Origin: Promethearchaeota archaeon
GTDB taxonomy: Archaea > Asgardarchaeota > Lokiarchaeia > Sigynarchaeales > SOKP01
Direction of reading: 5' to 3'
Length of the DNA stretch: 64,000 nt
Assembly: GCA_016839845.1 (NCBI GenBank)
Contig: JAEOTL010000062.1
Location: 1-64,000, forward strand
Below the pieces are notes generated by a model, which made no database searches, was not told the origin of the DNA, and saw only the letters and a program-made list of their open reading frames with translations. Every line of letters begins with the position of its first letter. Positions within the stretch are counted from its first letter, which is position 1. This document shows, piece by piece, positions 182-60,562 of the stretch. The translations under genes and the position numbers were made by a program.

Positions 182-1546
182 ATAATAGTAAATAAAAAAT
201 TAAAAGTTCTGATTTTCCCTTTAATATTGCTTAACCTTACCATCCTTTCAGTTCTCCCTTCTGGGAGAGCTATTAGTGTAAGTGAAATTCCGAAGATGAG
301 CAATACTCCGATGAGTAGTGTGGTCTTAGATGGGGCTATTAATGCTTCTGAATGGGCTGACGCAGATTGGAATATTACTTTTTATTTAGATGTTGATAAT
401 AATCCTGATTGGAATGGCAAAATTAATGTGGATGGAAACAACACACTGTATATAGGGGAGGATGCAACAAATTTATATTTAGGGCTTGATCTTTGTAGTG
501 ACAGATCTGATAATGAAACAGATGAATGGATAGGAGTATGGTTAAATACTGCGAATCGGGTGTTTGATAATTATGCTGATTGGGTTGATTTTTTTGATAA
601 TGGTGTGGAAACATTAATTTATGATGTGGACGCTGATCAACCTTGGGAATATTTTTCAGATTTTCAATTAAAATGGTGGTACGATGTAAATGACGATTCT
701 GAATTTGTTGCCTATTATGGAACTCCTGAAGGCACAGCAGAAAATTTTGATACTGGCTATCCTGAGTTTAATATTACCTCAGAGAATGTAAGTTCTAATG
801 AACTTCATTGGCTTAATTTTTCAATTGATATGACAAAATGGGTGTATATGGAACAGGAGCTTGATGTGTTTGAAAACTTGGATATCCTAATCGGTTCCAG
901 ACATAATACGTCGATAAATGACTTTAAACTGGTTTTGTGGAATAGTGATGGAACATTTCCGTCATTAAGCGATCCTGATCAGGTTATTTCACTAAACACA
1001 GGCACATCCTATGTTACCGATACTGAATATTACGGTATTGGCAATGTAACAGCTAATAAAAAACTTCAATTTAGCTTAATTGGGAATCATTCTTCTCCAT
1101 TTACAACATACATTGATCAGGTAGAATTTAGACCATTTCGTAATTACACTAACTGGGCAGGTCATGTACAAGTACCTTATTCTACAATTAATTCTTACCA
1201 GATAGAAAGGAGTTTTGCTCCTAGTCCTAATAATGCAACTGCTCACAGAATGTTTGAATTTGCAATTCCAAAAACTGAACTTGAACTCTATGACCCCAAT
1301 GAAGATTTGGGCATTATTATAGGAGGTTACGGTACTTTAGCAGCTATAAACGGCTCAAATTGGTGGGTATTTTCGGAAATTGATCACCATCAATATGTAG
1401 AAAATAGTACCTATTACAAATACTATAACATGAAAGGATTAACTTTACCCGGTGGCGCAATTTCAGGATATTCAATTTTTCTATTGATTGGAGTATTGAG
1501 TATTTCTTCAATAATCCTAATGAAGAAAAAAATGAAAAACAAATAA
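182..1546 (+). CDS. Secreted surface protein with CBM9/DOMON-like domain and C-terminal membrane anchor
   Basis: This is a predicted cell-surface protein. The first conventional start in frame is TTG at 227, but that removes the charged part of a signal peptide. The frame is open upstream, and starting at ATA 182 gives a lysine-rich n-region (NKKLKVL), a hydrophobic core and a PSGRA-type end. AAGGTG at 172-177 is correctly spaced for that ATA. The mature part begins with a segment (LDGAINASEWADADW) that resembles CBM9-like/DOMON beta-sandwich domains, followed by Asp/Asn/Trp-rich extracellular sequence with many N-x-S/T sites. The last 30 residues form one hydrophobic segment followed by KKKMKNK, an archaeal C-terminal anchor. 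The ligand is unknown; sugar binding is only an analogy. The start codon is uncertain: about 454 residues if ATA, 439 if TTG. Confidence 0.7.
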   Translation: MIVNKKLKVLIFPLILLNLTILSVLPSGRAISVSEIPKMSNTPMSSVVLDGAINASEWADADWNITFYLDVDNNPDWNGKINVDGNNTLYIGEDATNLYLGLDLCSDRSDNETDEWIGVWLNTANRVFDNYADWVDFFDNGVETLIYDVDADQPWEYFSDFQLKWWYDVNDDSEFVAYYGTPEGTAENFDTGYPEFNITSENVSSNELHWLNFSIDMTKWVYMEQELDVFENLDILIGSRHNTSINDFKLVLWNSDGTFPSLSDPDQVISLNTGTSYVTDTEYYGIGNVTANKKLQFSLIGNHSSPFTTYIDQVEFRPFRNYTNWAGHVQVPYSTINSYQIERSFAPSPNNATAHRMFEFAIPKTELELYDPNEDLGIIIGGYGTLAAINGSNWWVFSEIDHHQYVENSTYYKYYNMKGLTLPGGAISGYSIFLLIGVLSISSIILMKKKMKNK

Positions 1547-44096: not shown

Positions 44097-45632
44097 CTAA
44101 TCTTCCTCTTCTATATAATAATCTTTAAATTTCGAATCGTAAGTGTGTAAATGGAACTTATTAGGAGATAGCAAGTAATTGGGATCTACTGTTTTCTTCA
44201 TATCTCTGAAAAATTGTTCATATTCCGGGGTAAACGCTCCCGCTTCAGTAACGGATTGTGATATGGATTCTCCTAACCAATAGTGAGCACCTCCATACCG
44301 AACTTGATGTCGTATTTTTTTATGCCATCTGTCCATATTTTTTTCCCGTTCTCCTTCTATGTTTTTCCCCCCAACTCCACCTAATACCACAAAATTACCG
44401 TTTGGTAGAAAATAGAGCATAGATGCGAAAATTCCAGGCCAAACTGCACCTCCACTAAATTCACTGGCATGTTTCTTACTGAAATCAACTATCTTATCAT
44501 GTACTTCTCCCATATGTGAGATTGGGATTTTATGACAAGTAGCCATTGAAATTTGAGCTGGCATAGGGGAAATAGATTGTTGGAAGAAATGAAATGTTCC
44601 CTCTAAATCGTAGCCAAATTTAGGCTCTTCATCAAACTCAGGGTTTATCAATGATCCTGGTACTTGAACAGCATCATTTTCCATGATCTTAGCAAGTTTC
44701 TCAAGTTTTAACTCTAAAGTACTCTCTTCCATGGCTTCAATAGTTATATTCATAAGAGGACCTTTAGCTGTAATTGTTTGACCTGTTTCCTTTTTAAATT
44801 GAGGAAGCCTCATCTGAATTAAAATCGCTGGTAATACTGAAATATCCCGTAAAGCCTCATTTACTTCGAATCGTATCTTTTTTGATAATTCAAATACTTT
44901 ATTATAATCATCTTTGTTGAGCACATACATCCGTGCCTGCTTATATGGGGGATCAGGGAATAATCTCAAGAAAGCTTTTGTTTTAATTCCCATGGTTCCC
45001 ACATCTCCCATAAATAGCCCTGTAAAGTCGGGGGAAACACCATATCTGCAAAATGGTTTCGCGTATTTGTTTGCTGCTGATCCAGTCCTAATGATTGTTC
45101 CTTCAGGATTTGGGAGGACTACTTCTACGCCTAAGCAAATATCAGGAACAAGACCGTATTTAGTTGAGCCACCTCCAGCGGTACTATTGGAAAGTCCACC
45201 TCCAATGGTTGCTGCGAATCCACTTCCGGGACCAATTACACCGGTAGTATAACCTGTAGGATGGAGATGAGATATTAACGCACCCCATGTAATTCCACAA
45301 CCGACTACGATATAGTAGTCATCTTTGTTGAATTCAATAACTTGATTCATTCTGGTAAGATCTAAAAGAATTCCGCTCTCAGTGACAGAACCTCCAACAA
45401 GATCAGCACCTCCACCTCTTGGTACCATTCTTATTTTGTACTTATTGGCGATCTTGACTATTTCAGATACTTCTTCAGTGGTTTCAGGGCGTACGATCAT
45501 GTCAGCCCATCGGTCAGGAAACGCAGGATCAACATTTCGTGAATATGCTGCCTTCATAAAATCTTTTTCAGTTACAAAGTCTTCTCCAACAACATTTTCA
45601 ATCTCTTTATATGCTTCTTTTACTTTCGAAAT
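44097..45632 (-). CDS. FAD-linked oxidase (GlcD-like), paralog 1, probable AUU start
   Basis: The FAD-binding PCMH domain has P-R-G-G-G-A-D-L-V-G-G-S and G-P-G-S-G-F-A-A-T-I-G-G-G-L-S-N; the C-terminal oxidase domain ends with V-D-P-N-Y-L-L-S-P-N-K. It oxidises an alcohol or hydroxy acid; substrate unknown. The first ATG in frame (45557) cuts off 25 residues that are conserved in all paralogs (SKVKEAYKEIENVVGEDF). Those residues begin at ATT (45632-45630), preceded by GTGAT five bases upstream and by an in-frame TGA two codons before TTA-AAA. I therefore place the start at ATT. It is co-transcribed with the CCG-domain subunit. Confidence 0.85.
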   Translation of the reverse strand: MSKVKEAYKEIENVVGEDFVTEKDFMKAAYSRNVDPAFPDRWADMIVRPETTEEVSEIVKIANKYKIRMVPRGGGADLVGGSVTESGILLDLTRMNQVIEFNKDDYYIVVGCGITWGALISHLHPTGYTTGVIGPGSGFAATIGGGLSNSTAGGGSTKYGLVPDICLGVEVVLPNPEGTIIRTGSAANKYAKPFCRYGVSPDFTGLFMGDVGTMGIKTKAFLRLFPDPPYKQARMYVLNKDDYNKVFELSKKIRFEVNEALRDISVLPAILIQMRLPQFKKETGQTITAKGPLMNITIEAMEESTLELKLEKLAKIMENDAVQVPGSLINPEFDEEPKFGYDLEGTFHFFQQSISPMPAQISMATCHKIPISHMGEVHDKIVDFSKKHASEFSGGAVWPGIFASMLYFLPNGNFVVLGGVGGKNIEGEREKNMDRWHKKIRHQVRYGGAHYWLGESISQSVTEAGAFTPEYEQFFRDMKKTVDPNYLLSPNKFHLHTYDSKFKDYYIEEED

Positions 45633-45817
45633 TTTTAATCACATTATTTTGTAAATGATATCTGATTTTTGTTAAATGTTGAATTCAATTTAATAGTTAT
45701 TCTTAATTCAGATTCTTTATTTAACTATTCTAAGAATAGCCAATAGTTATGATACTAAATTGATTAAAAGATTATAATAAAATTAAAAATTAAAAAGAAA
45801 AAATAGAAATTGATTTC

Positions 45818-49413: not shown

Positions 49414-49486
49414 TTTATTCACCACTAACGTTATATTCAATTATAAAGAATTACACGAGGAAATTAATTAAAGTTTTCCTTCAAAG

Positions 49487-58869: not shown

Positions 58870-59026
58870 TTTTTTGATATGCAATCTTTGGATTAAAAAA
58901 TATGAAGATGAGTTTCCTTAAAAGCCTTTTGAACCCCAAGTTGTTAGTGAATATCTACATAACTTTTATTAGGATATGCGGTCTATCTTTTAATTATTAC
59001 AATTTTTATAATATAGGGTGTGAAAA

Positions 59027-60562
59027 ATTAGCAAGGTTAAAAATGCCTATAAAGAAATAGAAGATGTGCTTGGATCAGATTTCGTATCTGATAAAGATTT
59101 CATGAAGGCTGCGTATTCTCGGAATGTCGATCCAGCGTTTCCAGATCGATGGGCTGATATAATTGTGAAACCAGAGACTACAAAAGAAGTATCGGAAATT
59201 GTTAAAATTGCCAATAAATATAAAATTAGAATGGTACCACGAGGTGGGGGGGCAGACTTAGTTGGAGGTTCTGTCACTGAAAGCGGAATTCTTATCGACC
59301 TTACACGGATGAATCAAATCCATGAAATAAATGTAGACGATTATTATTGTATTTTGGGATGTGGAATTACATGGGGTTCGATGCTCTCAGAACTGCAGAA
59401 AAAAGGAATGACTACGGGTATTCTTGGACCTGGAAGTGGATACTCTGCTACCATTGGCGGAGGGCTTTCAAACGCTACTGTAGGTTTTAGTTCTACGAAA
59501 TATGGACTTACACCAGATATTTGTTTGGGTGTTGAAGCCGTTTTACCAAATCCAGAAGGCACAATTATAAGAACTGGAGCAGCAGCAAATCAATATGCAA
59601 CTCCCTTCTGCCGTTATGGTGTTGCACCGGACTTCACTGGTCTTTTCATGGGAGATGTCGGAACCATGGGAATTAAATGTAAAGCTTTCCTTAGATTATT
59701 CCCTGATCCTCCTTATAAGCAACGACGATACTTTATGCTCTTAAAGGATGATTATAGTCAGGTGTTTAAACTGGCTCATAAAATGCGGATGGAAGTCGGA
59801 GATGGTTTAAATGATTTAATGGTATGGCCGTCCATATTATTCAACCTACTATCCGCTCAAGTTGTTAATAAACCCGAAAAAAGGCCAAAAATAACCGGAC
59901 CAGTATTTTCAGTGACATTAGAAGCAACAGATCAACGAATTATTGATATATATCTCGAAAAAACAAATGAAATTATGCTAAAAGACGATGTGACTAGATC
60001 ATTTGAATGGCAGGAGATTGATTTAGATATGGTTTTATCGAAAGATTGGAAATTCACATTAAAGGAAGAGTTTAATTTCTTCCAGAAATATATCTCAACT
60101 GCACCTCCTAAAAGTTCTTGTACAACGTGCCATAAAGTTGCGATTTCCCGATTAAATGAAAGTGTTCAAAAAGGAGTACAATTCAATATAAGCAATGCAA
60201 AAGAATTTCCACCAAAGAATCCCCCATATCCCGTTTTTGCATCATTCCTTATGTTTCTGCCTAACGGAAACTGTGTGATTGTAGGGGGACTCGGTGGTGA
60301 TAATACTGATGAACATCGTGAAACTACAATGAATATCTGGCATAAGAAAATACGACATCAAGTTCGTTATGGAGGTGCTCATTATTGGCTTGGAGAATCC
60401 ATCAGTCAGTCAATCGTCGAAGCAGGCGCTTACACTCCTGAGTTTATGCAATTCTTTAAAGATATGAAAAAAACAGTTGACCCAAACTTTCTGTTAAGCC
60501 CAAATAAATTTCACATGTATTCTTATGACCATGATTATACAGAGCATCTCGTAGAAGATTAG
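59027..60562 (+). CDS. FAD-linked oxidase (GlcD-like), paralog 4, probable AUU start
   Basis: Full-length FAD oxidase of the same family, on the opposite strand from the other three. Conserved N-terminal residues SKVKNAYKEIEDVLGSDF begin directly after ATT 59027-59029, with a stop (TGA 59021) two codons upstream and GGGTG at 59016-59020. The only conventional start, GTG 59066, would delete 13 conserved residues. PCMH motifs are intact, although the G-G-G-S-T-K-Y-G segment reads V-G-F-S-S-T-K-Y-G. A C-T-T-C-H segment is shared with paralog 3. It lies upstream of two TPR genes and shares its promoter region with TPR paralog 3. Confidence 0.87.
   Translation: MSKVKNAYKEIEDVLGSDFVSDKDFMKAAYSRNVDPAFPDRWADIIVKPETTKEVSEIVKIANKYKIRMVPRGGGADLVGGSVTESGILIDLTRMNQIHEINVDDYYCILGCGITWGSMLSELQKKGMTTGILGPGSGYSATIGGGLSNATVGFSSTKYGLTPDICLGVEAVLPNPEGTIIRTGAAANQYATPFCRYGVAPDFTGLFMGDVGTMGIKCKAFLRLFPDPPYKQRRYFMLLKDDYSQVFKLAHKMRMEVGDGLNDLMVWPSILFNLLSAQVVNKPEKRPKITGPVFSVTLEATDQRIIDIYLEKTNEIMLKDDVTRSFEWQEIDLDMVLSKDWKFTLKEEFNFFQKYISTAPPKSSCTTCHKVAISRLNESVQKGVQFNISNAKEFPPKNPPYPVFASFLMFLPNGNCVIVGGLGGDNTDEHRETTMNIWHKKIRHQVRYGGAHYWLGESISQSIVEAGAYTPEFMQFFKDMKKTVDPNFLLSPNKFHMYSYDHDYTEHLVED

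Follow-up and report, generated by a model that had tools for sequence, protein, structure and literature searches.

Probable AUU start codons behind strong Shine-Dalgarno elements in Lokiarchaeal FAD-oxidase genes and in the gene for aIF1

The stretch of DNA analyzed here (the window) comprises 64,000 nt of contig JAEOTL010000062.1 from a Promethearchaeota archaeon (GCA_016839845.1) and encodes four paralogous FAD oxidases, three on the minus strand and one, paralog 4 (P4), on the plus strand. P4 occupies positions 59027..60562 including the stop codon and has a length of 511 aa when read from an ATT codon, whereas paralog 1 (P1, 44097..45632), paralog 2 (P2, 46145..47626), and paralog 3 (P3, 47881..49413) make up the minus-strand set, to which P4 is 62–66% identical. 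In a scan of P1, P3, and P4, all three proteins matched the FAD_binding_4 model PF01565 (133.6, 132.4, and 125.3 bits, respectively, vs. a cut-off of 26.4 bits), and the gene adjoining P1 matches PF02754, the CCG domain. FAD_binding_4 oxidoreductases with a CCG-domain Fe-S partner are enzymes that we take to be of the glycolate oxidase type; the genes described here share PF01565 (P1, P3, and P4) and a PF02754 neighbor (P1) with them, and the start codon is their sole unusual feature. Judged from its sequence the window is Lokiarchaeal: among the 47 related loci from a genome contig search, 44 are from Lokiarchaeota/Lokiarchaeia, two from Helarchaeota, and one from a distant Sulfurovum. The closest related loci are those of bin60 (L001/L033), ABR03 (L002/L025), and WORC5 (L003), and in a comparison of the window with 20 stretches of the nearest genome DNA similarity was confined to the FAD cluster. 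Rfam and tRNA scans across the window gave no matches.

The proposed start codon of P4 is ATT 59027..59029 on the plus strand, after which the coding signature begins. It is preceded by GGGTG (59016–59020), an in-frame TGA stop codon (59021–59023), and AAA (59024–59026), and the element GGGTGTGA (59016..59023) resembles a Shine-Dalgarno (SD) sequence with a duplex energy of −8.3 kcal/mol, where this and all other SD energies were computed against an assumed 16S 3′ end rather than one read from these genomes. Within GGGTGTGA, GGTG starts 10 bases and GTGA 7 bases before the ATT. The element also holds an in-frame GTG (59018–59020), the sole conventional codon upstream; it is followed directly by the TGA, which closes that start, and the order GTG TGA AAA ATT leaves no open frame from the GTG to the conserved N-terminus. 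P1 is similarly arranged on the minus strand, with ATT at 45632–45630, GTGAT at 45642–45638, and the leader ATG TGA TTA AAA ATT, and the relative of P1 in L033 has the leader AAG TGA TTA AAA ATT. The start is forced in these three genes, in which an in-frame stop is followed by only one or two codons and then by ATT. P2 starts with ATG (47626–47624) behind GTGAT (47635–47631), and P3 has ATC (49413–49411) behind GGTGA (49423–49419) with in-frame GTGs at 49422–49420 and 49425–49423, that is, at −9 and −12 relative to the ATC. The aligned start codons of P1 to P4 are therefore ATT, ATG, ATC, and ATT, each with GTGA a few bases 5′ of it. A first-pass annotation of this DNA had proposed ATT 59027 as the start of P4 with GGGTG and TGA before it and a GTG thirteen codons on, and every one of these coordinates is exact; its mention of another AUU start 13 kb away on the other strand is borne out by the ATT of P1, and the sequence around the ATC of P3 with its GTG alternatives is as it had described. 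The ATC start of P3 is nevertheless ambiguous owing to these in-frame GTGs, although the predicted SD energy precedes the ATC and not the GTG.

A survey of ATT and ATC starts among relatives, which the first-pass annotation had suggested, covered 67 aligned oxidase copies from 48 sequences, with some genes counted twice where loci overlap. The start column holds ATG in 47 copies, ATT in nine, TTG in two, and ATC, ATA, CTG, and GTG in one each; the other five copies show some other codon and have poorly aligned N-termini. L003, the closest relative of P4 (92% identical), has ATG at the aligned site with an in-frame TAA immediately before it, and the aligned position is therefore a genuine start. 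ATT at the P4 site recurs in L001 and L002, and the ATT of P1 after TGA recurs in L033, where the relative of P2 also carries ATT. Among 17 close-relative pairs, which are not independent of one another, substitutions in codons 2–14 number 26/21/75 at positions 1/2/3 with 54 synonymous and 33 other differences, and in the 36 bases upstream they number 92/88/85 with no codon phase; when L025 is left out, the six P4 pairs give 7/3/15 versus 30/22/22. Thus, codons 2–14 evolve as coding DNA and the leader does not. A start at GTG 59066..59068, the nearest conventional in-frame start downstream, or still further downstream with the first 13 codons untranslated, would be the choice of conventional gene callers and has some company in the database (among 120 listed homologs, three annotations begin at the internal Met of MKAAYSRN and two at codon 4), but it would cost 13 conserved residues, as had been argued from the start and as the alignment and the third-position substitution bias uphold, and we regard it as extremely improbable.

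The sources are metagenome-assembled genomes, and an A5 run shorter by one base would bring GTG 59020 into frame, so that an assembly or base-calling error, or else the decayed start of a pseudogene, might be invoked. ATT is found at the same site in separately assembled relatives, however, and the first-pass annotation had argued that a single assembly error cannot account for both cases; in addition, codons of this kind recur in other families, the open reading frames are full length and conserved, and the aIF1 pattern described later is present in 47 genomes. Assembly error is thus very unlikely as the cause of ATT 59027, and the chance that either error or decay is the explanation is only slight. 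We conclude that P4 very probably starts at AUU 59027 and not at AUG.

The start state is labile within the FAD family, in which most relatives have ATG at the site of the P4 codon. On a tree of 58 rows, parsimony requires at least 11 changes of start state, and at least four for the ATT label, three of the latter being forced by well-supported branches. The tree left out L001 (the same genome as L033; its P4 is missing), L020, L041, L045, L047, identical proteins, and proteins of less than 400 aa; L025:4001 groups within the P4 clade. Parsimony favors an ATT that arose separately in P1 and in P4, with gains and losses not strictly separable. Six distant FAD paralogs (G022:C51, G019:C1, G015:C23, G009:C32, G020:C1, and G010:C403) have one stop inside the matched stretch, which may be due to an alignment that reaches into the leader or to broken genes.

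Starts at AUU, AUC, or AUA (hereafter AUH) were then collected from 182 stretches of nearly exclusively Lokiarchaeal DNA (2.06 Mb). A first pass that flagged 34 of 671 ORFs included antisense frames such as the VPTSPI set, and a longest-ORF rule removed these. Shadow removal left 1,860 ORFs, identical copies within a genome were then dropped, and 502 ORFs had a start column anchored by a homolog that starts with ATG. These anchored starts are ATG in 354 cases, TTG in 18, GTG in seven, and other codons with (67) or without (56) a conventional codon upstream. From the 123 nonconventional cases, 54 were removed because they had a conventional codon no more than five codons downstream or two codons upstream, a filter that also lost real-looking cases such as P1 of G001 (L124). 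Strict AUH starts, which lack a nearby conventional alternative, account for 18 of the 502 (11 ATT, four ATC, and three ATA), a fraction that is not a genome-wide rate given that the anchors are ATG-start homologs and the sample is enriched near the FAD cluster. The remainder consists of 17 AUH codons and one CTG with an in-frame conventional codon upstream, six strict near-cognates (four ACG, one AAG, and one AGG), and far codons, three of them strict and 24 with a conventional codon upstream.

By our own grouping and naming, the 18 strict AUH rows fall into eight families, seven of them with an SD: the FAD oxidases P4/P1 and their CCG-domain neighbor (two rows each), an ISFKRS neighbor and a 95-residue IYYRGY protein (five rows each), and a ligase-like protein, a hydrolase-like protein, a gene at position 185 of the window, and L027 (one row each). 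The candidate in the window (185..1546, plus strand) has ATA at 185–187 after GGTG, with the next conventional codon being TTG 227, and was anchored by a single homolog of 58% identity. The IYYRGY protein IYYRGYILIRLKAI, of approximately 95 residues (L088, 2407–2691), has an ATC or ATT start in nine of ten aligned genomes and ATG only in L083; its relatives are found in L081, L082, L084–L087, L094, and L095. The ATC of L027 lacks an SD and is probably spurious. More generally, the strict rows without an SD, which besides L027 comprise AAG in L180, AGG in L213, and two far codons, probably represent internal or misaligned positions; in the one remaining far case, ACT in L036, ATT immediately precedes the codon. 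Separately, ACG stands at the aligned start after an SD in four strict rows from two families (L005 1767–2556, L006 3056–3845, and L007 3132–3921; L147 18263–18635), and judged by the SD it looks like a real further start codon. The first-pass annotation had suggested that the start codon is a translational control point for the FAD-oxidase family. The AUU starts of P4 and P1 are supported, but this suggestion is upheld only in part, and its restriction to one family is too narrow: a control point peculiar to the FAD family was rejected given that AUH starts are found in eight families and, as shown later, in aIF1. The FAD start itself is labile and mostly ATG, so that a conserved control role for this particular start is no more than a possibility.

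AUH starts carry much stronger SDs than ATG starts. The mean SD energy is −7.18 kcal/mol for strict AUH starts and −3.57 kcal/mol for ATG starts, compared with −1.8 kcal/mol for far codons with an upstream start and −0.71 kcal/mol for control windows 60 bases upstream, and energies of −5 kcal/mol or lower are reached by 89% of the strict AUH starts, 31% of the 354 ATG starts, 8% of the far codons with an upstream start (n = 24), and 7% of the control windows (n = 445). AUH codons that have a conventional one upstream (17 rows) are intermediate (mean −5.68, 53% at −5 or lower), and the difference between all 35 AUH rows and the ATG starts has a p value of 5e-8, calculated over rows that are not independent. 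Where GTGA or GGTG is present, it lies 9–10 bases before the codon in 15 of 17 strict AUH rows versus 27 of 66 ATG starts.

These energies bear on the proposal that translation truly begins three codons upstream, at the in-frame GTG overlapping the SD, with the AUU being an internal Ile codon. Such a GTG is present in L001, L002, L025 (4001), L008, L019, the relative of P2 in L001/L033, and P3 of the window, and 25 of 120 homologs listed in the protein database start 3–4 residues earlier, and 20 of these have Ile at the corresponding site; we read these upstream starts, whose DNA is mostly unseen, as misplaced. In window P4, however, the GTG stands directly before TGA, and TGA occupies that place in P1 of the window and of L033; five IYYRGY rows have GTG TAA shortly before ATC or ATT. 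On average the GTG also lacks an SD of its own: at the 11 AUH sites with an in-frame GTG at −9, the mean energy is −6.47 before the AUH and −1.28 before the GTG, with three of the GTGs reaching −3.6 or lower and one of these −6.1. A GTG at −9 is found as well before 11 of 59 plain ATG starts that carry GTGA, as predicted from the placement of the SD. The in-frame GTG at −9 is part of the SD, and its use as the start is improbable. Within the SDs of the window, in-frame start-stop pairs are present at 59018–59023 (GTG TGA) and 45644–45639 (ATG TGA), and pairs of this kind (GTG TGA, ATG TGA, TTG TGA, and GTG TAA) also precede AUH codons in aIF1 and IYYRGY leaders; they may arise as a by-product of the SD or constitute a start-stop element.

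The gene for aIF1, which matches PF01253 (SUI1) above the cut-off and by this match is taken to lie outside the IF3 family, has no ATG, GTG, or TTG before codon 89 of its ORF in the nearest genome. An aIF1 match was found in 15 of 19 genomes of that genus, one of them masked, and all 14 readable genomes have a copy in which GGTTGTGA is followed by one to three codons and ATT (e.g., TAA GAG AGT ATT AAA GAC); the TGA of GGTTGTGA is in frame and mostly followed by a further stop. A further aIF1 copy in G018 (L255) does have ATG and GTG. Widening the search to the GTDB family to which the nearest genome belongs gave an aIF1 match in 55 of 65 genomes, and 53 of these (58 loci) were examined after leaving out G007 and G141 with truncated matches; one is masked, resulting in 52 readable genomes. 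Among these, 47 have an aIF1 copy without ATG, GTG, or TTG before the zinc-knuckle Cys (loci of this kind are L221, L242–L254, L294–L300, L302–L325, and L327, most with ATT after GGTTGTGA), four of the 47 also carry a copy with a conventional codon, and the other five genomes have only copies with a conventional start, a GTG. Taking the first ATH 9 to 4 codons before the Cys as the candidate start, we obtained ATT in 42 genomes, ATA in four, three of which have ATT close behind, and ATC in one. An SD of −5 kcal/mol or lower precedes the candidate in 40 of the 47 genomes (in an 18-base window slightly longer than that of the survey), and the spacing from GTGAT to AUU is 8 bases compared with 5 in P1. 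As a control, neighboring genes were examined at 30 aIF1 loci: in two adjacent gene clusters every locus (27 of 27 and 23 of 23) carries a conventional codon close to the start column, whereas such a codon is missing from 23 of 30 loci of the aIF1 cluster; a fourth cluster (19 loci, 10 without a conventional codon) resembles a noncoding frame. The longer SD spacing counts against the explanation proposed below, and so does the third base of the AUU, which shows scarcely more conservation than its counterpart in the Ile codon preceding the Cys (ATT in 46 vs. 44 of 57 loci). These leaders show AUU, AUC, or AUA to be the only plausible start of aIF1 in most genomes of the family.

Outside the family, we examined a nonrandom sample of 63 aIF1 loci, 30 of which were the best scoring and 33 chosen from the list. 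An unreadable CxxC set aside six of these 63 loci, compared with one of 58 (the masked one) inside the family. Among the remaining 57 loci, 48 have a conventional start, often GTG, and nine Asgard loci have none before the Cys: eight have ATA (L256, L261, L263, L265, L342, L350, L353, and L354), which follows AGGAGG in four cases, and one has CTG (L355).

We propose that the SD GGGTGTGA would place the 30S subunit on the P4 mRNA and that Met-tRNAi would initiate at the near-cognate AUU 59027 in the P site. A search for a special initiator tRNA in one genome (a 3.34-Mb contig) gave 20 matches, of which ARAGORN typed 6 of 20 loci (five genes), and identified no initiator. The arrangement of AUU, AUC, or AUA after a strong, well-spaced SD is a conserved anatomical feature in front of several Lokiarchaeal families. 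Because aIF1 of another archaeon, Sulfolobus, is reported to favor discrimination against noncanonical starts (PMC6237735, PMC8211752), we infer from the presence of this arrangement on the aIF1 gene that the factor most likely restrains its own production by way of the AUU and tunes the remaining AUH genes together with itself, which would constitute an aIF1-sensitive gene set. Taken as a whole, this explanation, that P4 is translated from AUU 59027 by way of its SD, that other families share the arrangement, and that aIF1 limits itself and tunes the AUH genes, appears to us likely.

The closest parallel is E. coli infC, the gene for IF3, a factor that rejects such codons and is reported to limit its own synthesis through an AUU start (PMC9410913). 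In Lokiarchaeal aIF1 the AUU is the sole plausible start (47 of 52 genomes) with an SD before it (40 of 47); start discrimination is reported for Sulfolobus aIF1 and not for the Lokiarchaeal protein (PMC6237735). aIF1 is described as functionally similar to IF3 and is thought to lack common ancestry with it (PMC7531240); it is a SUI1 protein (PF01253), and, unlike the infC case, several other gene families have AUH starts as well. Eukaryotic eIF1, described as autoregulating through a conserved AUG in poor context (PMC5823381), is likewise a SUI1-family stringency factor whose own mRNA has a weak start, but in that case a scanned AUG is weak through its context, whereas in aIF1 the weakness lies in the codon itself after an SD. 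Switches from AUG to AUU are reported to be extremely rare in prokaryotes, at 1 of 61,358 (PMC5622118); the same substitution has occurred repeatedly within one family here. That study is described as using annotated, precisely aligning starts, a method that would miss AUU starts that are not annotated. Among the matches listed in a literature search of titles and abstract openings, with preprints and most subscription journals outside its scope, none reported AUU starts in archaea or an archaeal aIF1 that begins with AUU.

The alternative that survives best is that the AUH starts are genuine but result from relaxed selection on start codons, with drift offset by strong SDs and no feedback through aIF1. 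The lability of the FAD start, with its many changes over the tree, is what such drift would produce, and non-AUG starts are reported to accompany stronger SDs elsewhere too (PMC5622118). Relaxed selection leaves unexplained, however, why aIF1 lacks a conventional start in most genomes of the family while its two neighbors keep one, and we give it a substantial chance, though somewhat less than an even one. As for the feedback reading, we tentatively suggest, at slightly less than an even chance, that Lokiarchaea, and perhaps Asgards in which aIF1 has ATA, CTG, or GTG, run an archaeal loop similar to that of IF3/infC that would set the output of AUH genes including the FAD oxidases.

Conventional gene calling does not offer AUU, and Lokiarchaeal proteins including aIF1 are likely to have been assigned wrong starts or missed. 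If aIF1 limits itself through its AUU, then three domains would have converged on one logic, with an AUU on the gene for IF3, a poor context for eIF1, and an AUU for aIF1, and Asgard archaea would then allow one to test directly how the stringency of start-codon choice was established before scanning arose in eukaryotes.
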